Below, piece after piece: positions 2,704-29,663 of a stretch of DNA of 64,000 bases; within the stretch, counting starts at the first letter, position 1, and each line of letters opens with the position of its first letter. The stretch is from Mycobacteriales bacterium (GTDB lineage: Bacteria > Actinomycetota > Actinomycetes > BP-191). The translations under genes and the position numbers were made by a program. The DNA lies in NCBI GenBank assembly GCA_035714365.1, contig DASTMB010000037.1, forward strand, positions 1-64,000, written 5' to 3'. Under the pieces are notes generated by a model. The model had not been told where the DNA came from. It did not search any database and saw nothing but the letters and a program-made list of their open reading frames with translations.

Positions 2704-4311
2704 TCAGACCATCCGGAAGATGTCGGCGACCCGGGCCGGGTCGGCGAACTCGGTGATGGAACGGACGTTGTCCGACAGCGCGTGCAGTGGTCCGCCGACG
2801 GCGCAGCCGACGGCGATGCCGAACAGCCGGAACCCGAGCCGGTGCTTGGCGGCGAGGAATCCGCGCTGCCAGTCGGAGGTGACGGCGCAGTCGTCGTCGG
2901 TGATGAACACGACGTCGGCCGCCTTCCGGCCGGTAACCGTGAACTCCTCGTCGAGGATCTGGGCAGCGAGGTCGAGGGGGACCATGAAGTCGGTGCCGCC
3001 GTTGAAGAAGGTCTCGACGAAACCGAGCACGTCCTCGATGGGGCCGCGGCCGGCGGGGAACCGGTACACCTGCTGCTCGTTGGCGCTGGAGAACAGGACG
3101 GCGACGAAGTCGCGGCCGGCGGCGCGCGCCTGGTCGAGCAGGGCGAGGGCGAACGCCTTGGCCCACGCCTCCCGCGTCACTCCTGCCGTGTCCCTGATTG
3201 TCATGGACCCTGAGGTGTCGACGCAGCACACGATCGCGCCCTGACCGACCCGCTCAGTGCCCTGGTGGGCGTAAGTGAGGACCTGACCTTCGACGAGGCG
3301 GGCGAGCAGGCTGCGTCGCAGGTGCGGGTTGGCGAGCGCCGCAAGTTCGGAGCCGACCATGTCCGGTAGCCGATCGGAGAGGGTGACACCGATGACCTCG
3401 TCACGGCCGTAGACAACCTTGCGGGCCCGTTCGCCGGCGGCCATGAGCCGGAACCGGCCGAGCAGCTTGCGGAACTCTGCGATGCGGTTGCGTCGCAGCG
3501 CGGCGACGAGCGCAGCACGTTCGGCGTACGGGAGCTTCTGCACGACGCCCGGCTCGACGCCCCACGCGCGCAGGAGCTCGGCTTCGTCGGTGAGGGCATC
3601 TGCGGCGTCGGTCACAGCCTGCTCTACGGGTTTGCGCGCGGCCGCGGCGAAAGCGGCGCGGGCCTCGTCAGCGTCCTGCCGGGCCTGGTCGGACTCCTTC
3701 TGCGCCTGACCGGCCGCGGTGGCGGCTTGGGCGAGCGCGTCCGCAGCCTGCTGCTGTGCCTCGGTCAGCGGGCCTTCCCCGTCGTAGTCGCCGAGGGCAG
3801 CGGATGCCGCGTCCAGGCACGCTTGCAGCGCCTGTTCGGCGGCGGTCCGGCCGTCCTCGGCGCGGCGTTCGGCCTGCATGGCTTCCGCGGTCTCCGGCTG
3901 GCTGTCGAGGACCTCGCGGACCTGCTCACTGACGCCGAGCGCGGCCATCGCCGCGCCGTAACCGTCGTGACGGGTGTACGCGCGCAGCCGCTGCGCGTCG
4001 GGGCTGGTGGCGATGTGCTCGGCGACGGCGTGGTTGCCGTGGCAGCGCGGGTCCATCTCCGGGAGAGCTCGGAGCTGCGGGTCGGCCTTGTAGAACTGCA
4101 GCACGGTGTCGCGGACGAGGTCGGGAGCGAAGTCGTGGTGCAGCGCAAGCTCGTCGGTGAAGCGGCGCAGCGCGGGAAGGCCGTCGGCGAGCTCGTCGAA
4201 GACGGCGGCGTCGAATCGGTCGTGGCGTACCGCGTCGGTCGCGGTGCCCTGCGGTGGCCGTGCGCTAAGCAGCGCCCGGCCCTTGGCGAGCAGGTCAGTG
4301 AGGAAGCCCAT
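2704..4311 (-). CDS. VWA-domain protein, partner of the MoxR ATPase (ViaA-like)
   Basis: A 535-residue cytoplasmic protein. The C-terminal third is a von Willebrand A domain with an intact metal-ion-dependent adhesion site: DTSGSM near 365-370, GGTD near 438-441 and ITDDD near 470-474. The N-terminal two thirds are helical with an Ala/Glu-rich coiled segment around 150-230. The start codon overlaps the stop of the MoxR gene (TGATG), so the two are translated together. In the RavA-ViaA and MoxR-VWA families the VWA protein serves as adaptor for the AAA ring, directing it to a substrate that is remodelled or loaded with a cofactor. The substrate here is unknown. Confidence 0.85.
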   Translation of the reverse strand: MGFLTDLLAKGRALLSARPPQGTATDAVRHDRFDAAVFDELADGLPALRRFTDELALHHDFAPDLVRDTVLQFYKADPQLRALPEMDPRCHGNHAVAEHIATSPDAQRLRAYTRHDGYGAAMAALGVSEQVREVLDSQPETAEAMQAERRAEDGRTAAEQALQACLDAASAALGDYDGEGPLTEAQQQAADALAQAATAAGQAQKESDQARQDADEARAAFAAAARKPVEQAVTDAADALTDEAELLRAWGVEPGVVQKLPYAERAALVAALRRNRIAEFRKLLGRFRLMAAGERARKVVYGRDEVIGVTLSDRLPDMVGSELAALANPHLRRSLLARLVEGQVLTYAHQGTERVGQGAIVCCVDTSGSMTIRDTAGVTREAWAKAFALALLDQARAAGRDFVAVLFSSANEQQVYRFPAGRGPIEDVLGFVETFFNGGTDFMVPLDLAAQILDEEFTVTGRKAADVVFITDDDCAVTSDWQRGFLAAKHRLGFRLFGIAVGCAVGGPLHALSDNVRSITEFADPARVADIFRMV

Positions 4312-5468
4312 CAGGCCGCCGACCCGGCGCCGAGCACCTCATTGAACAGCCGCAGCTTGATGTTCCGCGCCCGCGCGACGACCTCGTCGAGCTTCGACGT
4401 CGACCGCCCGTCTGCCTGCGCCTGCTCGGCCAGGGTCTTCGCTCGCTGCTCGATCTCGCCGGCCTTGAACTGGGCCTCGATGGCGTAGCTGGTGCGCTTG
4501 TCGAGCGCTTCACCGGCGCGAGCGGCGAGCTCGGTCTCGATGTCGTCGAGCTGGCGGGACATCTCGACGGCCTCGCGGTTCGCCGGGCTGGTCTTGGCGA
4601 GTACCTGGCCTTCGACCACCGGCGCGTGCTCGATCGCAGTCCAGAGCACGTGCCGCAGCACCGGCAGGTCGTCGTCGTCGACCGCAGAACGGCCGTCGAG
4701 GTACGCCGACGCCTGCAAGAGGCGGACCGCCTGCTTCCACCGGCGGTCGGACGCCTGCACTCCATCGCCGGCGAGGCTGACCCGCAGTTCGAGCAGTGCG
4801 TCGCGGATGCCGGCCGGGACGGCGACCGTGGGCACCTCGCTGTCGATCGCGGCCTGGAGCTCGGCGAGGTCGATCGTGGTCCTGGCGGTCGCCGGCGACG
4901 TCCTGGTGGCCGTGTCGAGCAGGGTGGTGAAGCTGCCCGGCTCCTGCACGTAGTCGACGAAGACGTGGACGAGGAACCGGTCGCGGATGGCCGCGAGCTC
5001 CGGTTCGAGCAGCTCGTTCGATGCGCCGATGAAGCTGATGAGCGGCAGCGTCATCGGCGTGGAGTTGTGGTGGTACACCCGCTCGTTCAGCGCGGTGAGC
5101 AGCGGGTTGAGGACCGTGGGGCCGGCCTTGCCGATCTCGTCGCCGAATGCGATGTGCGCGGTCGGCAGGTAGCCGTCGACGTTGCGGTGCCAGACGCCGG
5201 TGGCCTCGAACGCCTTGAGGTCGATCGGGCCGAACACGAACTCGGGTGGGAGTAGCCGGTCCAGCAGCGTTTCCCAGTAGCGGGCGCCGTCGAAACGGCC
5301 GGTCAGCGCGCGGACCAGCGCCGACTTCCCGGTGCCGGGAGGGCCGTAGAGGATGGCGTGCTGCTTGGCGAGCACGGTGACCATCAGCGTCTCGAGGACG
5401 TCGCGCCGTTCGAGGAACTCGCCGGCGAGCTCGCCGATGATGGCGCGGCAGCGGTCAGCAACGGGCAT
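4311..5468 (-). CDS. MoxR/RavA-type AAA+ ATPase
   Basis: This 385-residue protein starts at an ATG preceded by GGAGG. It has Walker A GPPGTGKS at 42-49, a Walker B-like AFGDEIGKA near 107-115, sensor 1 GASNE at 148-152 and the arginines of IRDRF just after it. Between Walker A and B lies the MoxR-type insert. The C-terminal lid and helical tail cover about 220-385. MoxR proteins form hexamers that use ATP to remodel partner proteins together with VWA-domain adaptors, and one follows directly here. MoxR-VWA pairs occur in chromosomal stress loci and in mobile elements. The target is unknown. Confidence 0.88.
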   Translation of the reverse strand: MPVADRCRAIIGELAGEFLERRDVLETLMVTVLAKQHAILYGPPGTGKSALVRALTGRFDGARYWETLLDRLLPPEFVFGPIDLKAFEATGVWHRNVDGYLPTAHIAFGDEIGKAGPTVLNPLLTALNERVYHHNSTPMTLPLISFIGASNELLEPELAAIRDRFLVHVFVDYVQEPGSFTTLLDTATRTSPATARTTIDLAELQAAIDSEVPTVAVPAGIRDALLELRVSLAGDGVQASDRRWKQAVRLLQASAYLDGRSAVDDDDLPVLRHVLWTAIEHAPVVEGQVLAKTSPANREAVEMSRQLDDIETELAARAGEALDKRTSYAIEAQFKAGEIEQRAKTLAEQAQADGRSTSKLDEVVARARNIKLRLFNEVLGAGSAA

Positions 5469-5524
5469 GGAGGAACCTCCGAAGCGTGGATGGGTGTGAA
5501 CGGCTCTGCGGGTGGCCGCGGCCG

Positions 5525-5992
5525 TCAGAGAACGGGGATGCCGAGCAGCGGCTGGGCGGCCGGCCGGGTGGTGCAGCCGCGCTGCCATGGGAATCGCCCG
5601 GCGGGGTCGGGCCAGACGAGTTGCACGGCGCTGATTGGCGGGCCGTCGCCGCGGTAGATCGCGTTGGCGATCGGCAACAGGCGGCTGTCGGCGACCGTGA
5701 CGAGGACGCAGGCGTAGGAGCGCAGCAGGTCGTCGATGCGCTGGCCGGCCACGAGCCGATTGCCGGCGCGAACGCGCTCGGCGAGCGTGTTGAGCTGCGA
5801 CTGTGCGACCGCCGGCGGGAGGCCGACGACGACGATCTCCGGGTGACCCCACTTGGCGAGGCCGACGGTGTAGCTGAACGGCGGGAACGTGACATCGCCG
5901 TGGGCATGCTGGACGGCCCATCCGTGCTGGTCGATCAGGCCGTTGACTTGGAGCAGGTAGTTCTGGACCTGTGCGGGCATGTCGCCGGTCAC
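5525..5992 (-). CDS. DUF4262-domain protein
   Basis: A 155-residue protein matching the DUF4262 pattern: GWAVQHAHGD near 24-33, FSYTVGL near 39-45, the PEIVVVGL strand near 51-58 and the C-terminal LVWPDPAGRFPW. These proteins occur widely in actinobacteria and their elements, and no activity is established. The GTG at 5992 overlaps the preceding stop (GTGA), so I prefer it to the ATG at 5980. Confidence 0.8.
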   Translation of the reverse strand: MTGDMPAQVQNYLLQVNGLIDQHGWAVQHAHGDVTFPPFSYTVGLAKWGHPEIVVVGLPPAVAQSQLNTLAERVRAGNRLVAGQRIDDLLRSYACVLVTVADSRLLPIANAIYRGDGPPISAVQLVWPDPAGRFPWQRGCTTRPAAQPLLGIPVL

Positions 5993-8699: not shown

Positions 8700-9653
8700 T
8701 CAGTGGGTGAGCTGGCGGGTGGTGCAGTCCGCGCGGGTCAGGTCGAGCCGCAGCGCGGTGAACACGGGGAAGCGGAGCTGCCCGTTCGGCGAGACCTCTT
8801 GGTAGGTCACGTCGACGATCACGTCGCCGCCGGCGCGGAGCCGTTCGGTGAGCAGCTGGAGCATGTCGTCGGTGAACCCGCTGCCGACCTTGCCGATCGG
8901 CTGCGGCGTGCCGTCGTCGTTGGTCAGTTCGAGGTGCAGCGCGCCGAATGTGGCGGCACGAACGCCCTTGCCTGGTTCGGTGCCGACGACCAGTGCGGAC
9001 AGGCTGCGGGTGAACTTGATCTTCACCCAGTGCCCGCCGCGGCCGGGCGTGTAGCGGCTGGACGGTCGTTTCGCGATGAGACCTTCCAGGTGCTCGGCCT
9101 CGGCGAGCGCGAGCATCGCCGGGCCGTTGAGACCGGTGGGTGAGACGACCAGGCCGCCGGCAGCGGCGATGTCACCGAGCCGAGCGAGCCGGGCGGTGAG
9201 CGGTCGCCGGCGAAAGTCGTTGCCGTCGTAGAGCAGGTCGAACGCGATGAGCGTCGCCGGCGCGGTGGCCGCCGCGTGACGGATCGCGGCCGGCGTGGCC
9301 TGCGCGGCGCGCCGATGCGTGAGCGGGAACGACAGGCGTCCGTCGGCGTCGAAGCAGACGAGTTCGCCGTCGACGACGAGGGGGGTACTCCCGGGGAGGG
9401 CCGCAAGGGCGGCGGCGACGTCAGGGAAGCGGGCGGTGAGGTCGCCACCGTCGCGGCTGCGTAGCCGCACCTGCCGCTTCTCATCGACGTAGCCGAGGCA
9501 GCGCACCCCGTCCCATTTCACGTCGAACAGCCAGCCGGCGTTCGTGAGTGCGGTCACTGCCTCGCCGGGCGTGGCGGCGACGGTCTTGCCGGCTGCGGCG
9601 AGCATCGGCGCCTGGTCGAGCAGGTCAGGCGGGAATGACGACCCCGTGGTCAC
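8700..9653 (-). CDS. ATP-dependent DNA ligase
   Basis: A 317-residue ligase with the minimal two-domain architecture. The adenylation domain has the nucleotide-binding lysine in DVKWDGVR (Lys46), motif III-like FDLLYDGNDF, motif IV EGLIAKRPSSRY and motif V WVKIKF. The OB domain follows (about 215-317) and carries the ALHLELTND strand. Such LigC/LigD-type ligases seal breaks in non-homologous end joining with Ku. A Ku gene lies 1.3 kb upstream in the same operon, which supports that role. The start ATG overlaps the stop of the upstream gene. Confidence 0.9.
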   Translation of the reverse strand: MTTGSSFPPDLLDQAPMLAAAGKTVAATPGEAVTALTNAGWLFDVKWDGVRCLGYVDEKRQVRLRSRDGGDLTARFPDVAAALAALPGSTPLVVDGELVCFDADGRLSFPLTHRRAAQATPAAIRHAAATAPATLIAFDLLYDGNDFRRRPLTARLARLGDIAAAGGLVVSPTGLNGPAMLALAEAEHLEGLIAKRPSSRYTPGRGGHWVKIKFTRSLSALVVGTEPGKGVRAATFGALHLELTNDDGTPQPIGKVGSGFTDDMLQLLTERLRAGGDVIVDVTYQEVSPNGQLRFPVFTALRLDLTRADCTTRQLTH

Positions 9654-10018
9654 GGCGACGGCTGCCCGCTGCGTGGGTGGCAGCAGGACAACGGGATGCC
9701 GCCGAGGATGTGCTCGGTCACGCCGTCCGGGACGTACGTCTGCGTGATCTGAGCGTCGCGCAGGCGCCGGGTCGACGCCTCATCGAGGCGCACCTGACCT
9801 CGCGTCCTGGAGATGCTGATGACCGTTCCGGTCAGCCCGTCGAGCTCGCGCGGCCTCAGGCCGGCGAGGACGACGTCCTGGCCGACGTTGACAGCGGCGG
9901 CGCGGATCGCCCGCAGCGCCTTCTGCCGGGCCCGGGCGGCGTCCCAGATGCGGTTGAGGTCCTCGGCGCTCGCCTGGCCGGCGATGAACGTCAGGACGTC
10001 GGTAAGGGTGAGGTTCAC
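9650..10018 (-). CDS. Hypothetical protein between Ku and ligase
   Basis: A 122-residue protein starting at a GTG with GGAG at -10. Residues 1-40 are helical (LTDVLTFIAGQASAEDLNRIW); 50-85 form a small beta barrel-like segment with VVLAGLRPRELDGLTGTV, resembling short KOW/SH3-like folds. The C-terminus ends in CCHPRSG. It is coupled to the ligase gene by an ATGA overlap. It could bind RNA or DNA, which is inference. No named family is recognised. Confidence 0.55.
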   Translation of the reverse strand: MNLTLTDVLTFIAGQASAEDLNRIWDAARARQKALRAIRAAAVNVGQDVVLAGLRPRELDGLTGTVISISRTRGQVRLDEASTRRLRDAQITQTYVPDGVTEHILGGIPLSCCHPRSGQPSP

Positions 10019-10104
10019 AAGGTTTCTCCAGATCGTCAGGCCGCGCGGCGGGCTCCCGGGCATGGGCGCACGCGCGCCGCGCGGCGGTGTGGTGGGGTCG
10101 CTCG

Positions 10105-10488
10105 TTACGAGCGGGCGGGGGCGGTGGCGAGCTGATCGGCGTACGCCGCGATGTCGGCCGGGTCGTGGCAGGCGGCCAGGCCACTGTCGCGGTGAACGAG
10201 CGCAGAGGATCGCTGCTCGACGGCTTCGCCGCACAGCGCACACCGCTCGGGCTCGACGGCGAGTTGGTTGAGCCAGTCGTCGCCGTCGTAGGACCAGCCG
10301 CAGTAGCAGCAGTTCACGCCGACGGTGGTTGCGCTGTCATAGTCGACCTCGGTTCGGCCAACCCAGTCGAAGTGGCGCGTGCCGTCGGCGGCCGCGGTGA
10401 CGTGCACGATCGGCGCGTGCCCGGACAGCCGTTCCGTCGTGGACAGCCCGTCGTTTCGTGCGCAGTTCGGGCAGACGAGCGTGCTCAC
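10105..10488 (-). CDS. Zinc-ribbon protein
   Basis: A 127-residue protein with three CxxC pairs: CPNC at 6-9, CCYC near 60 and CALC near 85, the last followed by Cys/His (HRDSGLAACHD). These give one or two zinc ribbons, typical of nucleic-acid or protein-binding adaptors. The GTG start overlaps the previous stop (GTGA). It is one of several small zinc proteins in this element. Its partner is unknown. Confidence 0.6.
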   Translation of the reverse strand: MSTLVCPNCARNDGLSTTERLSGHAPIVHVTAAADGTRHFDWVGRTEVDYDSATTVGVNCCYCGWSYDGDDWLNQLAVEPERCALCGEAVEQRSSALVHRDSGLAACHDPADIAAYADQLATAPARS

Positions 10489-10943
10489 GCAGCGCCGAGC
10501 GTCGTCGTGAACTGCCCGCTGCCGGGAGCCACATCGGTCGGTTCGAGCAGGCCGAGCGCGCTGCGCAGTGGCGTGGACCAAGGCGCGTCCCGGTCGAGCA
10601 GCTTTCCCCACGTCGTCGCGGCGCCGCCGGGCGCGTCGCCGAACGACAGGCCGCCGGTGATGTAGACGGTGACGGGTCCGAGTTCGAGGCCGTCGACCTC
10701 CTGGAAGTCGAGCGACTCGACGAAGTCGTCGACCAGGGTGCGCAAGGCCCGTCGGACCGCGTCGCGCAGGTCACCTAGACGGCCGTTCGACGGACGCGTG
10801 TCGTCGTCCAGGCGGTCGAGGATGTCCTCCAGGGTCTCGCGATCGAACGTGTCGGCGAGCCGGCACGCCGCACCGCGCGCGGCCTCCACGTCGACGACAC
10901 CGCCGACGGTGTAGACGGCATAGAGCATGAAGCAGGAGCTCAC
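10485..10943 (-). CDS. Hypothetical element protein, 152 aa
   Basis: A 152-residue acidic protein. The N-terminal MLYAVYTVGG is strand-like; the middle (ETLEDILDRLDDDTRP and LRDAVRRALRTLVDDFVESLD) is strongly helical; the end is Gly-rich. It is coupled on both sides, starting inside the stop of the Ku gene and ending inside the start of the zinc-ribbon gene. Its position beside Ku suggests an accessory role in DNA metabolism. No family is recognised. Confidence 0.55.
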   Translation of the reverse strand: MSSCFMLYAVYTVGGVVDVEAARGAACRLADTFDRETLEDILDRLDDDTRPSNGRLGDLRDAVRRALRTLVDDFVESLDFQEVDGLELGPVTVYITGGLSFGDAPGGAATTWGKLLDRDAPWSTPLRSALGLLEPTDVAPGSGQFTTTLGAA

Positions 10944-11755
10944 GCCGACCTGGCCTCCTCCACCGTGGCGGGCGTCGCGGCCGCCGCGGCTGCGCTCAGC
11001 GCGTCGAGGAACGACACGACGTTCGTCTTGCCCTTCGGCGCGGACGGGATCGGGACGACGGTGCCGTTGGCCTTCGCCGCGATCAGCGCCTCGCGGGCCG
11101 CCCGCTGGGTGTTCTGGTAGTTGTCCGGATCGAACGGGGCGCGCAGCGACTCGACGAGGGTCTGCGCGAGCGGCAACGCCCGTTCGTCCACCGGCGTGTC
11201 GGGGATCGCCGGCAGTTCCTTGACCTCAGCCGGCCAGGCGAGCTGGCGCAGCGTCACCACGCCCCGGTAGCTGCCGAGCTGCCACATCGCCGGCTTGCCG
11301 CGGACAGCGAACACCGTGCAGAACACGGTATCGGGGTCGCCGTCGACGATCGCCCGCAGGATGGCGTACGCCTCGGCCGCGCCCTTAGCGGGGCTCAGGT
11401 AGTAGACCTTCGCGCCAGGCAGCGTGTGCTGGGCGACTTCGTCACGGCCGTGAGCAAGGAGCGTGATGGAGTCCTTCACGTCCTCGTCGACCTGTCCGGC
11501 CTGCTCGATCTCTGCCTGGGTGAGGACAACGAGCGCACCGTCGAGCTCCGCAGCCCGGTCGGGGAACTCGTTGAGCCTGCCGATACGGCCGCACTGCTCG
11601 CACGCGTACTGCTGGTGCACGCGTCCCGCGTCATGCCCGTCGCAGCACACGGCGTGCAGACCGTCGCTGCCGGCTTCAACGGCCGTGTGGACGTTGACCG
11701 GGATCGACAGCAGCGGACCGAGCCGGACTGCGACGTTCGATCGCATCGCGCGCAT
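10940..11755 (-). CDS. ku: Ku-like DNA end-binding protein
   Basis: A 271-residue protein with the core of the bacterial Ku fold. It shows RSNVAVRLGPLLSIPVNVHT near 5-24 (the SIPV strand of the family), HQQYACEQCG with a CEQC pair near 52-55, LTQAEIEQAGQ, and VYYLSPAKGAAEAYAILRAI in the dimer ring region. An Ala/Lys-rich C-terminal tail ends the protein. Ku dimers thread onto broken DNA ends and recruit LigD-type ligases. The chain is within the usual bacterial range, and the CxxC pair is an unusual addition. With the ligase downstream it forms an element-borne end-joining set. Confidence 0.8.
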   Translation of the reverse strand: MRAMRSNVAVRLGPLLSIPVNVHTAVEAGSDGLHAVCCDGHDAGRVHQQYACEQCGRIGRLNEFPDRAAELDGALVVLTQAEIEQAGQVDEDVKDSITLLAHGRDEVAQHTLPGAKVYYLSPAKGAAEAYAILRAIVDGDPDTVFCTVFAVRGKPAMWQLGSYRGVVTLRQLAWPAEVKELPAIPDTPVDERALPLAQTLVESLRAPFDPDNYQNTQRAAREALIAAKANGTVVPIPSAPKGKTNVVSFLDALSAAAAAATPATVEEARSA

Positions 11756-11756
11756 C

Positions 11757-12941
11757 TCAGCCTGCCAGCCGCACCGTCATGAGCAGATAGCTCATCGCGG
11801 GATCGGTCGGGCTCGTCAGCAGCGCCGGCTTGGCCGGGCCGACCAGGTTGAGGTCGAACTCCTCGCTGTTCAGCACCGCCGTCCCGTCGAGCAGATAGGC
11901 CGGCGTGAATGCGACGCTCATCGGTTCTCCTTCGTAGGCGATGTCGAGTGGTACGGCGACCTGGCAGTCCTGCTCGCTGCCTGCGCTGGCCCGGCAGTCA
12001 CCGTCGGCGAGGTCGAGGATCATCGGGCGGGTCGGCTGCGAACGACCGGTGTGCCGTGAAGTCCCCCCTGCGTCGACCGCGACCTTGAGCTTGGTGATCG
12101 CGTCGCGCAGTGAACGCGTGTTGACCCGCGCGCGGGCGGCGAACTCGGTCGGCAGCAACGTGCGCCACTTCGGGAACTCGCCGTCGATGGTGCGCAACGT
12201 GGTCCGGTAGCCGAGGCTCGACAGCGTCGCCCACCGGACGTCGTCTTGCTCGACCTGCCCGAGCGTCGCAGGCGCGCCGCGGTCGACATGCTTACGCGCG
12301 GTCGTGACCTTCAGGACGTCATCCAGTGGCTTCGCCGGGACGAGCATCGGCTCGGACAGGTCGGCGTGGATGCCTGTGCGGTACACGGCGAGCCGGTACC
12401 GGTCGGTGGTAGCGGCGACGAGTTCACCGCCGTCGACGCTGAACTCGATCGCGGTCAGCAGCGGCAGCGTGTCGTCCGTGCCGGCACCGATCGCGACACG
12501 GCGGAGTGCGGCGAGCGGCTGCTCGCCCAGCGCGGCGACCGGGATGTCGTCGTTCGCCGGGATGGCCGGGAAGTCGCTCTCCGCGAGGGGCAGCGTCGCG
12601 ACGACGTTTCCGCAGCGGACGGTCAGGCGCGCGTCGTCAGCGTCGAGGCGAACCTCGGCAGTCGAGTCCAGACTGCGCAGCAGGTTGTGCAGCCGCGGAC
12701 GGTCCACGGCCGCGTGGCCGACTCCGGAGCCGTCGATGTGGGCGCTGGTGGCTCGCTCGTAGTCGAAGCCGGTGAGCTCGGCCGCGTCCGGGTGCCCGGT
12801 GACCAGGACGGCCTTGAGGAACGGCATCGCTGCGTGTCGTGGTGAGGCGATCGACGCGAAGGTCAGCGCCTCGGCCACATCGGTGACCCGGGCGCGGAGA
12901 TGGAGCCGAGCCCCCGTAGGGGTCGTCAGCGCAACAGTCAT
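11757..12941 (-). CDS. dnaN: DNA polymerase III beta subunit-like sliding clamp
   Basis: A 394-residue protein with three clamp repeats, the length of chromosomal DnaN. Recognisable parts are FLKAVLVTG and SDFPAIP in repeats one and two, ATDRYRLAVYR near 185-195, the GEFPKWRTLLP segment that begins repeat three, and the terminal YLLMTVRLAG, close to the YLLMPVRL ending of true beta clamps. It would encircle DNA and tether polymerases or ligases. A second clamp on a mobile element usually serves its own replication. Ku follows after one base, so co-expression is clear. Confidence 0.85.
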   Translation of the reverse strand: MTVALTTPTGARLHLRARVTDVAEALTFASIASPRHAAMPFLKAVLVTGHPDAAELTGFDYERATSAHIDGSGVGHAAVDRPRLHNLLRSLDSTAEVRLDADDARLTVRCGNVVATLPLAESDFPAIPANDDIPVAALGEQPLAALRRVAIGAGTDDTLPLLTAIEFSVDGGELVAATTDRYRLAVYRTGIHADLSEPMLVPAKPLDDVLKVTTARKHVDRGAPATLGQVEQDDVRWATLSSLGYRTTLRTIDGEFPKWRTLLPTEFAARARVNTRSLRDAITKLKVAVDAGGTSRHTGRSQPTRPMILDLADGDCRASAGSEQDCQVAVPLDIAYEGEPMSVAFTPAYLLDGTAVLNSEEFDLNLVGPAKPALLTSPTDPAMSYLLMTVRLAG

Positions 12942-13016: not shown

Positions 13017-15992
13017 TCAGGCGGCGGAGCGTTCGGCGGCGAGGATGTCGTCCAGGCGAGGCAACCGGACGTTGCGACGACCGACGCCAGGGGCCACGCG
13101 ACGACCGACGCGGGCGTGCAATGCCGCGATCTGGTCGGCGACGCGCGTGGTGATCGTGCCGTTGACGTCGATCTTGACCGCGAGTTGGGCGTAGCCGAGC
13201 TCGCGGGCGATCCATCGCTGGTTCCAGCCCCGCGTCTCAAGGTCGCGCAGGAGCCGGGTCGTCGGTCCGGCGTCGACCGGCAGTTCGCAGCTCATGACCA
13301 GCCGACCGCGGCTGCCCTCGGTGTCGTAGAGCGCCAGGACGTCGTCCGCAGTCGTCGCACGGATGCGCCGGGCGTGCTCGTCCTCGATCTCGGCCAACCG
13401 GCCGTTCACGAGGCCGCGAACGACACCGACCGGCACGTCGGCGGCTACCGCGTACGCGGACGGGCCGGGCGGTCGCTCGAAGTGCCGGTCACCGGCGATG
13501 CGACGTCGGATGATTCCGGCGAGGGCTTCGAGGTGGCGCCGGGCACCGTCGGGCGGAACCGGATTGCGCAGCCGTTTGTGCGCAGCCATCGACCTACGGC
13601 CGCTTTCGCGGTTGTAGGTGAGACAGTCCTCGCACCGACAGCCGACCGCGTAGCCCTTGGCGGTGCCGTGCGGATGGTCGCCGAGGTCGATCGGCTCGTC
13701 GGCGGCGCGGGTGACGCCGGGAGCGGTCCACACCCAGCCGGGTAGCGCCGCGAGCCAGGCCGCGTGCTGCGGGTCGAGCTGCCGTCGGTGGTAGAGCAGC
13801 CGTTGCTGCGCGACCCAGTTGCCAAGGTTCACCGTCGCGTCCGGCAGCTGTTCGCGGCGGTAGGTGCCGGGCGGGGCGGCGTGGCCTTCCCGCGCGGCGT
13901 ACTGGCGCAACGCCGAGTAGTGCAGCCGCCAGGTGGTCTCGGCGACGTTCCACTGCCACATCCTCATGCGGCCGCGGAAGCCGGCGGCCGCCATGAGTTC
14001 GTCGTGCAGCGCCGGGTGGAGCCTGCCGACGAGCTTGCGGCGGCGTACCGCGAGTACCCAACGACCCAGCGGCAGCCCATCTTCGACGTGATCTTCCGGG
14101 ACGTCGGCGTGGTGCTCGAAGTCGATGAACACGCGCAGCGCGTCGACCATGGCCAGGTCTTCGGCCGGGACGGGCGTCCACGTGAAGCCGGGGATCCGGC
14201 GCAGGCGGGCGACGCGGTCCGCGTCGAGCAGTCCGTCTCGGTATGCCTGCCGCTGGTGCGCGAGCCACACGCCGAGCCGGTACCGTCGATCGGCCGAGCG
14301 CTGCCCGTCGAGCACGCTCGACGTGTCGGTGAACAGGACCCCGTGTTCGCGCGCAGCCTGCTCGACGAGGTCGGCGCTGTCGTTCCACCAGGCGTCCGCG
14401 CGGTCCCACGCCCATCCCGGAACCTCGTCGAGCAGACGAACTCGCCGGGCGGGCAGCCGGCCGTGACGGCGCAGGAGGCGCTGATCCTCAGCCCACGCGC
14501 CGAGTCCCACGCCGCGCCAGGTGAGGTTCCAGGCGAGGCGCGCACCACCGGTGCTCTCGGCGTAGTCGAGCAGCAGCCCGTACATGCGCTGCCACCCGGT
14601 GCCGACCTCGTGGACGAGCCGCAGCTCGACGTCCGGCAGCCGTACGCCGGGCGGCAGGTCGAACACGACGCGGTCGGTCGGGCGAGCCCTGACCTGCCCG
14701 GTCTTGCCGTACTCGACCGCCGCCCGTTCCAGCGCGTCGGCGAGCCGCTCGTCGTGCGCGCGCAGGCCACGCAGGACCGCCCACACGGCGCCGAAGCAGC
14801 CCGTCGCGAGCGCGGTGTCGTCGTCCACGCCGATCGGGACAGCGACCGGCAGGATGATCGTGCCCTCGGTCTTGCCCGGCGCCGTGCGCAGCACCCGCCC
14901 GACGGACTGCACGATGTCAACGGTCGACTCGCGGTTGTCGGTGAACATGATCCCGTCGACGGCGGGGACGTCGACACCTTCCGACAGGCACCGGGCGCTC
15001 GTCACCACGCGCAGCTCGCCCGGGTCGCCGGCCGCGAGCCAGCGCAGGATCTCCGCGCGTGTGCTCGCAGGCAACGCGCCGGACACCCACCGGGCGCGCA
15101 CCGTACGGCCATCGTCGAGCGGCAGGCCGTCTATCTGCTCGGCGAACGCCTGCGCCTTCGCCACCCGCCCGTGGTAGGTGAGCACGCGAGTGAGCCCGCG
15201 CGCGGTGGCGGCCTTGCGCAGCGCTGCGGCCGGTAGCAGATGACCGTCATCTGACTGCTCGTCCGCGATGACGAGCACCTGGTAGTCGCAGAGCAGCCCG
15301 GTGGCGATCGCGCGGGCGAAGCTCACTTCGTGCGCGACCGGGCCGAACATCGCCTCGTCGGCCATCGTGTACCGGGCCGCGTCCTCACCGGACTCGACAC
15401 CGCCGGCGGTCGCGGTCATGAACAACCTGCGGGCGACGTCGATCTGACGGCCGAGGATGAGGCGGAACTCCGGCCGGGGGCGGCCGGTGAGGCGGTGCGC
15501 CTCGTCGCACACGGCGAGGTCGAACTCGATGCCGCAGCCCCGTTGCGCCTGCGCGACCACCGGCAGCGAGTGGTACGTCGAGAACACCACCTTCGCGCGG
15601 ACAGGGCCGCGGCGCAGGAACGCCATGACCTTCCGGTGGTCGGTGGTCACCCGCGCCCGTACCGCGTCCCAGTCGGGGTCGGCTTCCGGTTCGTCGCTGA
15701 CGCGTTCCGCTTCACCGGCTGCGGTCGTCGGGTCGGAGCAGACGACCAGCGCGTCGAACGGCCAAGTGCGGATACGCCGCCACTCGCGCAGCGTCTGCCC
15801 GACCAGGCTCAGGCTCGGGAGCAGGACGAGCACCGTTCTGGCGTCCGACGCCTCGGCGTGCCAGCGGCCAACGAGCGTCTTGCCGGTACCGCATGCCATG
15901 CGGAGCTGCGCTCGGTCTGACACGGCGAACGCGCGGGGCAGCGCGGTCAGCGCGTCGAGCTGAATCGAACGCGGCCGGATGACCGCGCTCAC
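13017..15992 (-). CDS. SF2 DEAD/DEAH helicase with four helicase-associated repeats
   Basis: A 991-residue protein starting at a GTG overlapping the WhiB stop. The N-terminal half is an SF2 motor: MACGTGKT (motif I), CDEAH (II), FMTATAG (III) and IVQSVGRVLRT (VI). Then follow about four HA repeats of 65-75 residues, each ending in a form of LGxWxxxQRxxYxxGxL...LPGWxW. A GYAVGCRCEDCLTYNRE zinc-like knuckle follows, and the C-terminal 150 residues contain helix-turn-helix segments. HA-repeat helicases are common on actinobacterial plasmids and elements, probably for DNA unwinding in replication, transfer or exclusion. It is co-transcribed with the clamp and SSB genes. Confidence 0.85.
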   Translation of the reverse strand: MSAVIRPRSIQLDALTALPRAFAVSDRAQLRMACGTGKTLVGRWHAEASDARTVLVLLPSLSLVGQTLREWRRIRTWPFDALVVCSDPTTAAGEAERVSDEPEADPDWDAVRARVTTDHRKVMAFLRRGPVRAKVVFSTYHSLPVVAQAQRGCGIEFDLAVCDEAHRLTGRPRPEFRLILGRQIDVARRLFMTATAGGVESGEDAARYTMADEAMFGPVAHEVSFARAIATGLLCDYQVLVIADEQSDDGHLLPAAALRKAATARGLTRVLTYHGRVAKAQAFAEQIDGLPLDDGRTVRARWVSGALPASTRAEILRWLAAGDPGELRVVTSARCLSEGVDVPAVDGIMFTDNRESTVDIVQSVGRVLRTAPGKTEGTIILPVAVPIGVDDDTALATGCFGAVWAVLRGLRAHDERLADALERAAVEYGKTGQVRARPTDRVVFDLPPGVRLPDVELRLVHEVGTGWQRMYGLLLDYAESTGGARLAWNLTWRGVGLGAWAEDQRLLRRHGRLPARRVRLLDEVPGWAWDRADAWWNDSADLVEQAAREHGVLFTDTSSVLDGQRSADRRYRLGVWLAHQRQAYRDGLLDADRVARLRRIPGFTWTPVPAEDLAMVDALRVFIDFEHHADVPEDHVEDGLPLGRWVLAVRRRKLVGRLHPALHDELMAAAGFRGRMRMWQWNVAETTWRLHYSALRQYAAREGHAAPPGTYRREQLPDATVNLGNWVAQQRLLYHRRQLDPQHAAWLAALPGWVWTAPGVTRAADEPIDLGDHPHGTAKGYAVGCRCEDCLTYNRESGRRSMAAHKRLRNPVPPDGARRHLEALAGIIRRRIAGDRHFERPPGPSAYAVAADVPVGVVRGLVNGRLAEIEDEHARRIRATTADDVLALYDTEGSRGRLVMSCELPVDAGPTTRLLRDLETRGWNQRWIARELGYAQLAVKIDVNGTITTRVADQIAALHARVGRRVAPGVGRRNVRLPRLDDILAAERSAA

Positions 15993-16291
15993 GCCGCGTC
16001 CACAGCGGTCGCAGCGGCATCGCAGGGCAGGTAGGTGTCGGCGGTGACCGGGACCGCATCGATCCCGTCTCGTTCGCGCCGTTCGCGCCGTTCGGCGTAG
16101 GCCGTGCCGGCCCACAGCCCGCGGACATCGTGCGCGATCGCGTACTCGAGGCAGGGTCCGGAGAACGGGCATCGCCGGCACGCCGCGAGCGCGACCTCGG
16201 GGTACACGTCCAGTTCCGAGTGGAACAGGTCGGGATCTTCGACGGTGCAGGGAGGCGGGCTCGGGAACCGGGGCAGCCGGTCAGGGGGCAT
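15989..16291 (-). CDS. WhiB-family Fe-S transcription factor
   Basis: A 100-residue protein with the four-cysteine pattern of WhiB proteins: an N-terminal Cys15, then ACRRCPFSGPC (Cys38, Cys41, Cys47). These bind a [4Fe-4S] cluster that senses oxygen or NO. GLWAGT near 58-63 is the G[V/I]WGG-type turn. WhiB proteins act with the sigma A subunit on promoters. It is one of two in the element, here translated just before the helicase, and may regulate transfer or replication genes. Confidence 0.85.
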   Translation of the reverse strand: MPPDRLPRFPSPPPCTVEDPDLFHSELDVYPEVALAACRRCPFSGPCLEYAIAHDVRGLWAGTAYAERRERRERDGIDAVPVTADTYLPCDAAATAVDAA

Positions 16292-16297
16292 GCGTCA

Positions 16298-16565
16298 TCA
16301 CTCCTCCAGAACGGACGTGGTGCCGGATGGGATGAACTCGACCTTCAGCACGGCGATGCGCTGCCCGCCGCAGAGGTCGTCGGGGACACGGCGGACGACG
16401 TGTTCGGTCAGGCCGCGCCAGGCGCGACAGTCGAGGAAAGCGACCCATCGCTGCGTCCTCTTGTCGAAGCGCCGCGGGGTCGAGGCACGGTGAAGTTCAC
16501 GACGACCGTGCCGCACCGAGCCGGGTCAGCACGGGCGTGTCGACGAGGTTGCCGACGATGGTCAT
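16298..16565 (-). pseudogene. ssb: Single-stranded DNA-binding protein, broken by two -1 frameshifts
   Basis: The ATG at 16565 overlaps the previous stop (ATGA) and begins MTIVGNLVDTPVLTRLGAAR, a clear SSB N-terminus that hits a stop after 22 codons. VVNFTV then appears in another frame, and STPRRFDKRTQRWVAFLDC, WRGLTEHVV and GQRIAVLKVEF in the third, exactly the SSB order. Adding one G in each of two short G runs (about 16503-16506 and 16482-16487) would restore an OB-fold protein of about 89 residues. It lacks the long acidic tail. It is either decayed or carries assembly errors. It sits with the helicase and clamp. Confidence 0.75.
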
Positions 16566-19784: not shown

Positions 19785-19807
19785 CCATGGGCAGGACGGA
19801 ACGGTCG

Positions 19808-20668: not shown

Positions 20669-20878
20669 TCAGTCGTTGTTGATGGCATCGCGGTAGGCGG
20701 CCGGAGCCGATGGCTCGCGGGGCGGCGGGATCACGAACGCTCGTTCCGGTGCGTGATGTGCTCGTGCGTGCCCCGGGGGCGCGCAGGTGCCAGCGCGGTC
20801 AGCGTGCCGGCCGGACGGTCGTCGTTCGATGCGGACGTGCGAACCGGCGGGCGTGCAGGCGGAAGGTCGGGCGTTCAC
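20669..20878 (-). CDS. 69-aa small protein coupled to the replication-relaxation gene
   Basis: Its GTG start overlaps the stop of the replication-relaxation gene (GTGA), the arrangement used throughout this operon, which argues that it is real. The peptide is Arg/Pro-rich (AFVIPPPREPSAPAAYRDAI near the end) and probably mostly disordered. No function is assigned. Confidence 0.45.
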   Translation of the reverse strand: MNARPSACTPAGSHVRIERRPSGRHADRAGTCAPPGHARAHHAPERAFVIPPPREPSAPAAYRDAINND

Positions 20879-21831
20879 GTGCGCTCGATATGAACCTCCT
20901 CGTCGTCGTGGTTGGCGTAGCGCCAGGAACGGGCGCTGTCAGAGGCGGCACGAAGCCGGGCGGGAAGCGGAATGTCGACGTCGGCGAGTTCGGCGAGACG
21001 GAGACGGCGGGTAGCGCGAAGCGGCAGCCAGATCGCGTCGGCCGGACAGCCCGGAACGGCTGTTGCGATCGGCACGTCGTCGATGTCGGCGAAGGCGCGC
21101 CGCAGCTCGGCTTCGCGGCCGGCGCTGGGGAACGCGAAGACGACCCAGCTTGCGATGCCGCGGTCTCGCTGAAGGGCGCGGTAGCCCGGGATCTTGTCGA
21201 GTAGCCGGTGGTGGTTCTCGGTGCCGCGGTCGTACTCCAGCAGCACGTCAACTGAGCGGCCGTTCTCAGTCCAGACGAGACGGGCGTCCGGGCGGGCAGT
21301 CTCACCGCACCAGAGGCGGCAGCGGCGTTCGGAGGACCAGCGTTCCAGGGCGGCACCGGGTGTACGGCGGGCGTGGCCGGCGAGGGCGGTGGCGAGCTCG
21401 TTCACGCCGAGGGTGTGCGCAAGCCGCTGGGAGTGCTCGACGCGGATCTTGTGGTGCGGCTGCCGGTAGCGCGGATCGAGCCGCACCGGGGTCTCCGGCC
21501 GGCGAGGGTCGCTGCCCTGGTCGGTTTCGCCGTGGCGGCGTAGCGCGAGGACAGCGGCTCCCGCTTCTCCGAGGACGTAGCGGAACGAGGTGTGTCCTCC
21601 GGTGTCCTTGCGTTCGTGGAAGCGGTCCACCAGGTCGTAGTGGTGCAGAACGGCGAGACGGTGCTGCGCGCTGACAGGCGAGCTGAACAGCAGACGGGTG
21701 AGCTGCTCGGTGGTGAGCACGACGTGCTGCTCGAGCGTCCGCAGGATCGTGAGGTCGCGGGCGGTGAGACGGTCGCCTACGGCGGCCAGCCGTTCCTCGA
21801 CCCAGGGCGGAAGCCCTCTGCTATGCCCCAT
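20875..21831 (-). CDS. Replication-relaxation family protein
   Basis: A 318-residue protein. Residues 20-105 form a winged helix: LTARDLTILRTLEQHVVLTTEQ, then LTRLLF, HRLAVLHHYDLVDRF and FRYVLGEAG. The C-terminal part (130-250) has RPDARLVW, DVLLEYDRGTEN and KIPGYRAL, which fits the PD-(D/E)XK-like fold noted in this family. Such proteins are standard in actinobacterial conjugative elements, next to the type IV coupling ATPase, where they are thought to bind plasmid DNA. It follows the coupling gene after 156 bases. Confidence 0.85.
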   Translation of the reverse strand: MGHSRGLPPWVEERLAAVGDRLTARDLTILRTLEQHVVLTTEQLTRLLFSSPVSAQHRLAVLHHYDLVDRFHERKDTGGHTSFRYVLGEAGAAVLALRRHGETDQGSDPRRPETPVRLDPRYRQPHHKIRVEHSQRLAHTLGVNELATALAGHARRTPGAALERWSSERRCRLWCGETARPDARLVWTENGRSVDVLLEYDRGTENHHRLLDKIPGYRALQRDRGIASWVVFAFPSAGREAELRRAFADIDDVPIATAVPGCPADAIWLPLRATRRLRLAELADVDIPLPARLRAASDSARSWRYANHDDEEVHIERT

Positions 21832-21910
21832 GTGGAACGCCCCCTACCTGAGTCCGGGCAGCACGCTGCCGGGGCTGCGGGCCGCTGACCTGCGGGAACG
21901 CGCCCCCCAA

Positions 21911-21936
21911 GCCCGGCAACGTCAAGGCTGCCGGGC
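21911..21936 (-). terminator. Hairpin after the coupling ATPase gene
   Basis: An 8-bp perfect stem (21911-21918 with 21929-21936) around a 10-base loop, in the 156-base gap downstream of the transfer genes. No U-run is seen. It may end or attenuate the transfer transcript before the replication-relaxation gene. Confidence 0.45.
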
Positions 21937-21987
21937 CACTGCCGGCGTCGCTGCCGCCCTCGCGGCGGCGTACGGCAGGACGGACGT

Positions 21988-24339
21988 TCACGCCGCCCTC
22001 CCCTGCGGTTCCGCCGGCGGACCGATCGGCCGCGGCGGGCGGGTCCGCGCCGTGAACGCGGCCTGGTCCTCACCGCGGACGACGGTGCGCACCGCGACCT
22101 GGTAGGCGGCAAGGTGCGCGAGGTCGTGCTCGGAGAGCTCCGGTGCGAAATGCCGGGCGAAGCGGTGGGCGTCTTCCGGGGAGCAGGTGAACGCGAGCTT
22201 GGTCCGCGCGTTGGTGGAGATCGCGTCACCGACCTCGCGGGAGAGCTGGCCCAAGTGCTGGTGCGCGAGCCACAGCGCCAACCGGTATCCGCGGGCCTCG
22301 GCCAACATCTCGTCGAAGGAGCGCGGCAGGGTGAGGAAGTTCTGGAACTCGTCGACGATCAGGGCCGCGTCGACCCGGACCGCCTCACCGAGCGCCGCGC
22401 GGCCGGTGGCGGCCTGCCACACCTTCGCCACGACGAACGAGCCGAGCAGCCGGGCGGTGTCGTCGCCGAGCAGTCCCTTAGGGACGCGGCACAGCAACAG
22501 GCCACCGTCGAGAACCTCGGCCATGTCGATGCTGGACCGCGGCTGGTCGACGACCTCCCGGACGAACCCGCGCAGCAGGAAGGCGCGGAGCTTGTTCAGC
22601 ACCGGGCCGACAACTTGGGCGCGCTGCGCGTCGGACTGCTTGATGTACCAGGCCCAGAAGCCGCCGAGGACCGGGTTGTCCTCGATGCCGAGCAGGTACG
22701 GGTTGAGGAACTCGGTGTCGGTGAGCAACCGTGGAACCTGGCCGAGCTTGCCCGGCGGGTGGCGCAGCAGGGTGAGGCACGCGGCGCGCAGCACGTCGTC
22801 GGTGCGCGGACCCCAGTGCTGCTGGAAGATGCGCCGGAAGATGCCGATGAGGTGCTCGACGACGAGGTCCGCGTCGACGCCGTCCGGGACTTCGAGCATG
22901 TTCAGCGTCGGCGGCGCACCGGGCGCCTGCGGGTCCAGGACGATCGCGCCGCGCCGCTGCGCCGGCGACATGCGCGCCAACACGTCGGTGATGAGGTCGC
23001 CCTTGGGGTCAATCACCACGGTGCCGCGGCCGGCTTCGGCGTTCTGCAGCACGACGTTGCACAGCAACGTGGACTTGCCACCGCCGGTCGTCCCGGAGAC
23101 GTGCACGTGATGACGCGCATCGGCGGCGCGCAGCACGACCGCCCGTTCCGGGCCGGCGTCCGCGTCGCCGAGGACGATGCCAGCCGCCGGGTCGCGTGGG
23201 ACCGCGGGTGGCGGCGGCACCGAACGGGCACCGGCGCGGGTGAGCCCGACGACGGCGACGTCGGTGGGCAGGTGCGCGAGCCCAGCCAGCTCGAGGGTGG
23301 ACAGCAGGCTGCCGTGACCGAGGCGGCGGGAGGCGAGCGCCGCGACGGGCTGCCGCAGCCGGTGCCGTTCCAGCCGGTTACGGCCGCTGTGCAACGCGAA
23401 CGCCGAGGCGAGCGCGTGCGCGCGCCCGCGCAGCGTCCGCCGTACGACGGGCGTCCGCTCGGCGTCGGTGGCGACGGCGTAGCGGACGGCACCGGTCCAC
23501 AGCGCACCTTCGGCTTTGGCGAGGATCGACCGGACGTCAGGGCTGGCGGCCGGGTCGACCGGCGCCCGGCCGGCCCGGCTGCCCGGCGCAGGCAGGAGGT
23601 CGAGTGCCCGTCCCAGCCGGGACGCGGGGCGGCCAGACCGGACGTCCCGGGCGGCGCGGCGACAGCGGGCGAGCGCGCGGCCGGTCGCGGGCCGGGCGAG
23701 CACCTGCACGGCGGCGCGTTCGCCGGTGTGCAGTGACCCGACCGCGCCGATGAGCGCGCGCAGCGGGTCGGCCGGGTGCTCGGTCCGCAGCGGGTACCAG
23801 CCAGGGCCGGCGAGCCGCAGCTCGCCGCCGGTCGCGTTTCCGCCGGGAGGGAGTGGCGCGGGTGCTGGGTCCGTCACCTCGGTCTTCGCACCCGGCCACG
23901 CGGCTTCGACGGCCTGCTCGACGAGGCGGCGCGGTACGCCGCCGGGCACCCACAGGCTGATCGAGAGGCCCTCGACCGTCCAGACGTACTCGAACGCGAG
24001 GTGCGGCTGGCCGAACGCGAGACGCCGCCAGCGTGGGCGGAGCAGGTCGTGCAGGTTGTCCCACAGCGCGGCCGCGCCGTCCGGCTCAACCTCTGGCGGG
24101 GAGAGGATCGCCACCTGGCGGGCGCCACGAAGCAGCCGCGCGAGCTGCCGGCGGCGCAGCCAGGCCGCGGCGGCGACGGCGCCGGCGAGCGCGCCCCCGG
24201 CCAGCGCGACCCGGGGCGCCGTCACCACGGTCAGGCCGTCAAGGTGGTGAAGCAGTCGGCTCCACTCGCCGGCCGGATCGACGAGCCAGCGGGCGAGCGG
24301 CCCGGCCGGTGGCGGGCTCGGCAGCGGGGCCGGGGTCAT
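21988..24339 (-). CDS. Type IV secretion coupling ATPase (VirD4/TraD-like)
   Basis: A 783-residue protein. Residues 44-61 form a single membrane segment. A region of about 300 residues with PPGWYPLR-like beta structure precedes the motor. Walker A GTTGGGKS lies at 416-423, Walker B-like ALIVDEFQNFL around 680, and WLAHQHLGQL is a Q-loop-like segment. Such ATPases pass the DNA-relaxase complex to the type IV channel at the inner membrane. The ATG overlaps the stop of the preceding zinc-ribbon gene. No recognised relaxase is beside it. Confidence 0.88.
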   Translation of the reverse strand: MTPAPLPSPPPAGPLARWLVDPAGEWSRLLHHLDGLTVVTAPRVALAGGALAGAVAAAAWLRRRQLARLLRGARQVAILSPPEVEPDGAAALWDNLHDLLRPRWRRLAFGQPHLAFEYVWTVEGLSISLWVPGGVPRRLVEQAVEAAWPGAKTEVTDPAPAPLPPGGNATGGELRLAGPGWYPLRTEHPADPLRALIGAVGSLHTGERAAVQVLARPATGRALARCRRAARDVRSGRPASRLGRALDLLPAPGSRAGRAPVDPAASPDVRSILAKAEGALWTGAVRYAVATDAERTPVVRRTLRGRAHALASAFALHSGRNRLERHRLRQPVAALASRRLGHGSLLSTLELAGLAHLPTDVAVVGLTRAGARSVPPPPAVPRDPAAGIVLGDADAGPERAVVLRAADARHHVHVSGTTGGGKSTLLCNVVLQNAEAGRGTVVIDPKGDLITDVLARMSPAQRRGAIVLDPQAPGAPPTLNMLEVPDGVDADLVVEHLIGIFRRIFQQHWGPRTDDVLRAACLTLLRHPPGKLGQVPRLLTDTEFLNPYLLGIEDNPVLGGFWAWYIKQSDAQRAQVVGPVLNKLRAFLLRGFVREVVDQPRSSIDMAEVLDGGLLLCRVPKGLLGDDTARLLGSFVVAKVWQAATGRAALGEAVRVDAALIVDEFQNFLTLPRSFDEMLAEARGYRLALWLAHQHLGQLSREVGDAISTNARTKLAFTCSPEDAHRFARHFAPELSEHDLAHLAAYQVAVRTVVRGEDQAAFTARTRPPRPIGPPAEPQGRAA

Positions 24340-24551
24340 GACGCCCTCCGCGCCACAGGCCGCGTGACGTCGGCGGACGACGATGCCGGGGTTTCCGGCG
24401 TGCTCGGGTGCGCGCGGGTCTCGCCCGGCCGCGTCAGCGGTATGAGCGGCGCGCACGATCGGCACAGCGCGGCACCGTTGTCGAGCCGCCTGAAGACGGT
24501 GCGGATGCGCGCGCAGCCGCAGCAGATCAGGTTCGGCTTACGGCGGCTCAC
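24336..24551 (-). CDS. 71-aa zinc-ribbon protein
   Basis: Starts at a GTG overlapping the upstream stop (GTGA) and ends in an ATGA overlap with the coupling ATPase gene. CCGC near 10-13 and CRSC near 31-34 form one zinc ribbon; the C-terminal 35 residues are Pro/Thr-rich and disordered. It may be a small adaptor for the coupling protein. Confidence 0.6.
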   Translation of the reverse strand: MSRRKPNLICCGCARIRTVFRRLDNGAALCRSCAPLIPLTRPGETRAHPSTPETPASSSADVTRPVARRAS

Positions 24552-24832
24552 GGGCAGTCCCGTCGGGCGCGACAGACGGCCCCCGTCGGGGACGGGGCTG
24601 GCTCGGAATCGGGCTGGGGCGCGGCGTGCCAGCGCAGCCAGTTCCAGGCGGCGATCACAGCAGCCACCGCGGAGGCGACGACGCCGGCCCAGACGTGCAA
24701 GCTCGCGTTGATCGCCAGCCACAGCCCGCTCGCGAGGACGGTGAGGAGCCAGCCGGTGCGCTGGTTTCGGCCGCATAGCCACATCGCGGTCCAGCCGAGA
24801 GCGGCCGCGGCCCAGGCGGTGACGCCCGTCAT
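24548..24832 (-). CDS. Small membrane protein, three predicted helices
   Basis: A 94-residue protein with hydrophobic segments near 5-17, 24-42 and 46-66, then a polar tail ending CRARRDCP. The start overlaps the stop of the NlpC/P60 gene. It lies between the transfer-associated hydrolase and the coupling ATPase, so it is probably part of the transfer apparatus. No family is recognised. Confidence 0.55.
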   Translation of the reverse strand: MTGVTAWAAAALGWTAMWLCGRNQRTGWLLTVLASGLWLAINASLHVWAGVVASAVAAVIAAWNWLRWHAAPQPDSEPAPSPTGAVCRARRDCP

Positions 24833-25338
24833 GACGCCCCCGGAGCTGGCGCCGCACGCAATGATGGCCGGCTGAAGCCGAGCAGGTCGCCCGCGGCGAA
24901 CGGCTGGATGCGCACGACGGCACCCGTGTGCGGCGCGGCGATCATCTGCGTGGTGTCGATGACGAGGCCGACGTGGTGCACCCGGGTAGGCGTGCCGAAG
25001 AACACGAGGTCGCCGGGTTGCGGTTTGGTCCCGGGAGGCAGCAGCGGCCCCGCGTCGTATTGGGTCTGCGCGGTGCGCGGCAGCGCGATGCCGGCCTCGG
25101 CGTAAGCGGCCCAGGTCAGCCCGGAACAGTCGAACCCGACGCCGGGCGTCTCCTCCCCCCACCGGTACGGCACGCCGAGCTGCTCGCGGGCGAAGCCGAT
25201 GGCGGTGGCGGCGGGCTCGGTCGGTGCGCCGATCTCCACCGGTGTGCCGCTCGTTCCGGTGAGCGCGCCGGTCGCGGCGCCGATGAGGATGACCGGCGCG
25301 ACGAACACCCCGGCGAGGGCGGCGACGACGGCGTTCAT
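24829..25338 (-). CDS. NlpC/P60 cell-wall hydrolase of the transfer system
   Basis: A 169-residue protein. A membrane or signal segment at 2-28 is followed by an NlpC/P60 peptidase domain with catalytic FDCSG (Cys near 70), HHVGLV (His near 120) and a third polar residue in APHTG. The enzyme would cut peptidoglycan stem peptides outside the cell, opening the wall for the conjugation channel. The ATG at 25338 overlaps the VirB4 stop and is preferred to the one four codons upstream. Confidence 0.88.
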   Translation of the reverse strand: MNAVVAALAGVFVAPVILIGAATGALTGTSGTPVEIGAPTEPAATAIGFAREQLGVPYRWGEETPGVGFDCSGLTWAAYAEAGIALPRTAQTQYDAGPLLPPGTKPQPGDLVFFGTPTRVHHVGLVIDTTQMIAAPHTGAVVRIQPFAAGDLLGFSRPSLRAAPAPGAS

Positions 25339-29319: not shown

Positions 29320-29663
29320 CGGCCCACCACGGACTTCAGCGCCGTCACGAGGATCGGGGCGAGCGCCGCGACGGCGTAGCCCAGGCCGGCGTACTTGAAC
29401 GACGCCTTGCCCTTCTCCACCGACGTCGGGTCGCCGTTCGCCGTCAGGTAGCGAACACCGCCGACGGTCAGGTACAGCGTCGCCAAAGCCGCCAGGAACC
29501 CGCGCAGCCAGCCGGCCATGTTGTCGATCACCGCCGTCAGCTCCGGCGGCGGCGCGATCGGCGTCGGTGCCGGCGTCGGCGCGGCGTGGGCTGGCGCGGC
29601 GAGCAGGGTGAGCAGGGCAGCCGCGGCGACGACGCCAGCGGCGAGAGAGCAGAACCGTCGCAT
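29316..29663 (-). CDS. TrbC/VirB2-like pilin
   Basis: A 115-residue protein starting at an ATG with CTGGAGG upstream. A signal peptide (about 1-28, ending HAAPTP) is followed by a Pro-rich segment and two hydrophobic helices (near 50-70 and 90-110) separated by KGKASFKYA, the VirB2 layout. It is the first gene of the transfer operon, 180 bases from two operator-like sites. Confidence 0.75.
   Translation of the reverse strand: MRRFCSLAAGVVAAAALLTLLAAPAHAAPTPAPTPIAPPPELTAVIDNMAGWLRGFLAALATLYLTVGGVRYLTANGDPTSVEKGKASFKYAGLGYAVAALAPILVTALKSVVGR

Follow-up and report, generated by a model that had tools for sequence, protein, structure and literature searches.

Does a conjugative element carry its own means of joining broken DNA ends into a cell that already possesses them? 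The question is raised by a row of genes around positions 8700–12941 of contig DASTMB010000037.1 (hereafter C37; 241 kb) from a Mycobacteriales bacterium with a genome of 3.8 Mb (assembly GCA_035714365.1). The first 64 kb of this contig, referred to as the window, were analyzed; in high GC content and in relatives this DNA is actinobacterial. A preliminary description of the window had proposed that genes for a β sliding clamp, a Ku protein, an ATP-dependent DNA ligase and small proteins lie there in one tightly packed row and that the element brings its own end joining. In the reading we favour, with confidence and doubt about evenly balanced, the row encodes an accessory end-joining pair, a Ku and a bare LigD-type ligase, within the DNA-metabolism operon of an actinobacterial conjugative element of the type IV secretion system (T4SS) type, and acts by the mechanism proposed below.

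The gene row and its Ku protein

Within 8700–12941 the clamp, Ku and ligase genes are indeed recognized by Pfam, and together with the small genes they overlap or touch at every junction except for one gap of 86 nt. All genes are on the minus strand. The order of transcription is a WhiB-like regulator, an SF2 helicase, the clamp (394 residues, 11757–12941), Ku (271 residues, 10940–11755), a 152-residue protein (10485–10943), a 127-residue cysteine-rich protein (10105–10488), a 122-residue protein (9650–10018) and the ligase (317 residues, 8700–9653). The end of the helicase gene lies 75 nt from the clamp gene, and a single nucleotide separates the latter from Ku (TGA-g-ATG). Overlaps of 4 nt (GTGA) connect Ku with the gene of the 152-residue protein, this gene with the cysteine-rich one, and the 122-residue protein gene with the ligase, the 86-nt gap being located between the cysteine-rich and the 122-residue protein genes. 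These overlaps imply translational coupling and, as no terminator-like site was found in the row on its strand (the nearest, at 19785–19750, is upstream), the row is likely to form one operon read as a single transcript, to judge from spacing and overlaps. The reading frames are intact and show a strong coding bias, with a third-position GC content (GC3) of 0.87–0.93.

The protein encoded at 10940–11755 is a Ku by its sequence and by its predicted structure alike. It matches the Pfam family PF02735 above the cut-off (2.4e-10), whereas its NCBIfam score against Ku_bact (TIGR02772, 5.8e-29, 101 bits) falls below the curated cut-off of 150, as for a diverged member. A monomer was modelled with AlphaFold2 from a 42-sequence alignment (predicted local distance difference test, pLDDT, of 79.3), replacing a poor model from 15 sequences (pLDDT 57.6). 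The top Foldseek matches of this model are all Ku proteins, the best ones in the PDB being BsKu and MtKu over approximately 240 columns; TM-scores are 0.5–0.65 with a high root-mean-square deviation, the relative placement of the parts not being confidently modelled. Functional residues described in PMC12658125 and PMC12784961 were then mapped onto an alignment of 62 Ku sequences. The DNA-binding residues R49, K79, R126, R161 and R188 of BsKu correspond to H34 (also histidine in MtKu), R67, K116, R152 and K179, all basic or MtKu-like, and Y128 corresponds to Y118; mutation of these contact residues in BsKu cuts DNA binding (PMC12784961). The dimer residues W174 and E177 are kept as well. The preliminary description had made its case depend on the ring residues in a structural model; the model agrees with Ku along the entire core and the main positions of DNA contact are retained, and the protein may form a homodimeric ring on DNA.

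A putative metal ion at the bridge of the MtKu ring is held by C48 and C51 and, from the partner protomer, His35 (PMC12658125). The element Ku has C52 and C55 at the two cysteine positions, of which the first is occupied by cysteine in 58 of the 62 aligned sequences and the second in 32. What had been taken for a CxxC insertion is therefore the canonical metal-site pair of bacterial Ku. The actual insertion is the pair C37–C38, immediately before D39, which stands at the position of His35, and the metal site may have turned cysteine-rich.

The missing tail and the bare ligase

Beyond the minimal C-terminal region, whose positions L253 and S256 are kept, the element Ku contains a single basic residue, compared with a median of 11 lysines and arginines in 60 other Ku proteins, some of whose tails were cut at 300 residues, which can only under-count them. 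It is the only full-length Ku in the comparison without a basic C-terminal tail.

The ligase matches PF01068 (5e-26) and PF04679 (2.9e-10), contains motifs I, III, IIIa, IV, V and VI, and has the ligase domain of MtLigD (1vs0) as its best match in the PDB. With the NCBIfam model of the ligase of non-homologous end joining (NHEJ), TIGR02779, it yields 4.8e-54, below the curated cut-off, and is thus diverged. The gene contains neither the LigD_Prim-Pol polymerase domain nor the 3'-phosphoesterase domain (LigD_N), and no LigD-Pol is present on C37. The label "LigD-type" thus holds for the ligase domain with its six motifs and does not extend to the other two domains; the enzyme probably works like the ligase domain of LigD rather than like full LigD.

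For the M. tuberculosis proteins it has been reported that the tail of Ku engages the polymerase domain of LigD and is a hindrance to the ligase domain in isolation; once trimmed to its minimal C-terminus, Ku stimulates nick sealing by this isolated domain (PMC9638933). Seen against these results, the element pairs both trimmed forms, and its Ku and ligase read as a co-adapted pair. This pairing is the most specific mechanistic hint to come out of the analysis.

Proposed mechanism and competing explanations

According to the mechanism we propose, a Ku dimer would thread onto double-strand ends of element DNA, arising for example from host restriction or replication collapse, and would shield and bridge them to the benefit of the element. 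Being devoid of the basic tail, this Ku would directly stimulate the ligase encoded with it; the polymerase domain, by which LigD normally docks on Ku, would not be required, and ends needing fill-in would borrow the LigD-Pol proteins of the host. Recircularization after conjugation is normally performed by the relaxase on single-stranded DNA, so that a role at double-strand ends must arise from breaks and not from ordinary transfer.

The host has a Ku of its own. Its gene (PF02735, 2.3e-57) is on contig C56, in the vicinity of genes for a phosphoesterase-ligase protein and a LigD-type polymerase; LigD-Pol proteins are three in number (C43, C50 and C56), three further ATP-dependent ligases are found on C43 and C50, and the host clamp is on C41. 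The element set is therefore additional. The idea that the element brings its own end joining stands in so far as a conjugative element does carry Ku and a ligase of the LigD type whose motifs are intact, but this is not the only end joining of the cell. The genes on C56 are parts of the same pathway and differ from those of the element in that the host ligase has LigD_N, the genes are in divergent orientation and the two Ku proteins share 30% identity. A direct origin of the element Ku from that of the host is not supported, given this identity and their separation in the tree, where the position of the element Ku is unresolved on its long branch.

Several observations weigh against the accessory end-joining pair. 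End joining is already available in the host. The BsKu contacts K36 and K106 are replaced by N21 and D92 in the element Ku, W5 by R5, and the GLV synapsis loop reads GPLL. In the tree of 62 Ku proteins the longest branch is that of the element Ku (4.4 changes per site; median, 0.32), which has no resolved relatives. On a plasmid of S. anulatus a bare ligase goes together with a Ku that has its tail, so that a bare ligase need not be accompanied by tail loss. Moreover, the ligase domain of MtLigD on its own sealed nicks but performed poorly on double-strand breaks (PMC9638933), which means that the element pair may depend on host LigD-Pol or may be confined to the sealing of nicks.

This last result also lends itself to a different explanation, one that we regard as possible though rather doubtful: the chief task of Ku would be to protect ends from host nucleases, the ligase would simply seal nicks during element replication, together with helicase and clamp, and no end joining proper would take place. 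The location of all these genes in one DNA-metabolism row with helicase and clamp agrees with it, as does the lack of a polymerase domain on C37. On the other hand, the closest family of the ligase is that of NHEJ (TIGR02779), and Ku–ligase neighbourhoods recur on plasmids and viral contigs, which argues for joint action.

The clamp, a second copy in this genome, is a DnaN by its three Pfam domains (PF02768, 1.4e-15; PF02767, 8e-15; PF00712, 9.7e-7) and by TIGR00663 (2.5e-40, just above the curated cut-off). It is 34–36% identical to chromosomal clamps of the genus and 35% to that of the host. Clamps tether ligases in other systems, such as PCNA with Lig1 and the β clamp with LigA, and only one nucleotide separates the clamp gene from Ku. 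One could thus imagine a clamp-coupled repair machine in which the element clamp tethers the ligase or Ku and stands in for the missing polymerase domain as docking platform. We consider this unlikely, as neither a strict nor a loose clamp-binding motif was found in Ku, the ligase, the helicase or the small proteins of the row, and as related elements and plasmids have clamps without Ku. The earlier suggestion that a clamp beside Ku ties repair to replication accordingly has gene order as its basis, and a functional link between the two is hypothetical. Considering also how common plasmid clamps are, we find it most likely that this clamp works in DNA synthesis of the element itself and is encoded in the operon for reasons of timing rather than of partnership with Ku. 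Very unlikely in our judgment is an end-joining machine free of the polymerase domain and assisted by the clamp, in which the tail-less Ku activates the bare ligase, clamp and cysteine-rich protein act as tethers, and element DNA is sealed during establishment in a new cell.

Finally, the possibility that the genes are decaying passengers of an old acquisition, for which the extreme divergence of Ku, a broken-looking SSB-like gene nearby and the host's own end joining might speak, is improbable in view of the intact frames with strong coding bias, the complete set of ligase motifs, the retention of most contact positions in Ku, and the tight coupling of the genes.

Related systems, genomic setting and implications

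Ku and ligase genes on mobile DNA are already known. NHEJ on plasmids has been reported for 60 genomes (PMC7719229), and plasmid-borne kuC-ligD pairs have been published among the "variable" NHEJ genes of Streptomyces (PMC5124664). With the host Ku as query, Ku-like matches were obtained on 689 of 72,556 plasmid records; the element Ku gave matches in 49 phage records. Ku was also found on about 70 viral contigs and clamps on 232 plasmid records, and a ligase gene was located near that of Ku on plasmids as well as on two viral contigs. The Streptomyces plasmids with kuC and a standalone ligD (PMC5124664; S. coelicolor SCP1 and the S. anulatus NBC 01543 plasmid, L040) likewise are mobile replicons on which Ku has a bare ATP-dependent ligase as its neighbour, but their Ku has a basic tail, the plasmids are linear and no clamp is adjacent. 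On L040 and on two linear plasmids of Embleya (L211 and L212), a plasmid dnaE, encoding DNA polymerase III alpha, is located no more than a few kb from Ku, a recurring link between Ku and a replication gene. Mycobacteriophage Ku proteins (Omega, Corndog and Baka types; Duke13 gp202) are also carried on a mobile genome and are 28–31% identical to the element Ku; they differ by a canonical GLV loop, W5 and a basic tail, and no ligase or clamp gene is annotated within 5 kb of the Ku gene of Duke13. Phage Ku is reported to use host LigD, according to Pitcher et al. (2006) as cited in PMC7719229. On viral contigs L056/L194 and L193, Ku directly adjoins a ligase of 254–322 residues, as in a Ku–ligase pair, but there is no clamp and the ligases are only 25–30% identical to that of the element. 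Plasmid-borne dnaN genes, in Streptomyces and others, likewise provide mobile replicons with an additional clamp, which shares about 30% identity with that of the element, and were not adjacent to Ku in the records read; NBC_00724 and NBC_01544 carry both, more than 100 kb apart.

A clamp directly beside Ku was not met in the sampled plasmid, phage and viral neighbourhoods, those of plasmid Ku coming from a handful of records. Among 20 related T4SS elements, followed for up to 40 kb downstream of TraC, two carry a clamp and none a Ku. Scans of genome contigs with the element Ku and with the clamp, and of viral contigs with the ligase, yielded no close relative. Thus, the packing of the row and its diverged, tail-less Ku were not encountered elsewhere in these samples, and uniqueness is not claimed.

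The 152-residue protein belongs to no Pfam or NCBIfam family and has one weak homologue in 394 other genomes of the class; the cysteine-rich protein, probably zinc-binding, has no Pfam family and likewise one weak homologue, and the DNA fetched around these homologues contains no Ku, ligase or clamp. The 122-residue protein has a helical N-terminus, and its most likely start is at 10018, preceded by GGAGAA, rather than at 10243. Homologues of its gene with about 40% identity occur in related conjugative elements without Ku (L112:517-876, L114:2614-2976, L116:2118-2951 and L123:16078-16437). At the head of the row, the WhiB-like gene (15989–16291; PF02467, 1.3e-9) overlaps the helicase start by GTGA, and the helicase (13017–15992) contains four helicase-associated domains (PF03457 in four stretches, PF04851 and PF00271). 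Just upstream of the WhiB-like gene, at about 16298–16562 on the minus strand, an SSB-like gene with a partial match to the model of single-stranded DNA-binding protein (SSB) appears to be split over reading frames, as a broken gene or through an assembly error.

The conjugation genes occupy 20875–29663 on the minus strand and encode, by Pfam, a replication-relaxation protein, TraG/TraD-like, NlpC/P60, TraC-like ATPase, PrgI and TrbL proteins. The coupling protein, the TraC/VirB4 ATPase, PrgI and the relaxation protein that characterize a T4SS-type conjugative element are all present; the TraC-like ATPase family was found in 45 of 395 genomes of the class. GC3 of likely genes is mostly 0.74–0.93 between 1 and about 43 kb and beyond about 43.3 kb takes the chromosome-like value of 0.95 and above. 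On its left side the element is truncated where the contig ends, none of the integrase families tested was recognized between 29 and 43 kb, and direct repeats sought as attachment sites between the contig start and 37–47 kb were rejected, amounting to two scattered 15-mers only. From the sequence, the element may be either an integrated element or a plasmid. It also contains a MoxR-type AAA ATPase gene adjoining that of a von Willebrand A protein (2704–5525, minus strand), a pairing typical of MoxR-vWA systems, and a gene for a 1436-residue protein (34423–38733, minus strand) without Pfam family, weakly similar to the PADLOC models OloB and OloA and possibly a defence gene. Two further T4SS ATPase loci of this genome (L223, C23:3931-5499; L224, C95:1404-2981), distant relatives with 32–34% identity, probably mark two more conjugative elements.

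In bacterial end joining it is still an open question how Ku engages a ligase devoid of the polymerase domain. According to the in vitro results on M. tuberculosis, a tail-less Ku should pair with an isolated ligase domain; the operon described here looks like a natural example, and two small proteins suffice to test the prediction. The operon further provides the case of a conjugative element in which a likely break-repair kit is located next to a replication clamp, a combination relevant to the survival of mobile DNA in new hosts.

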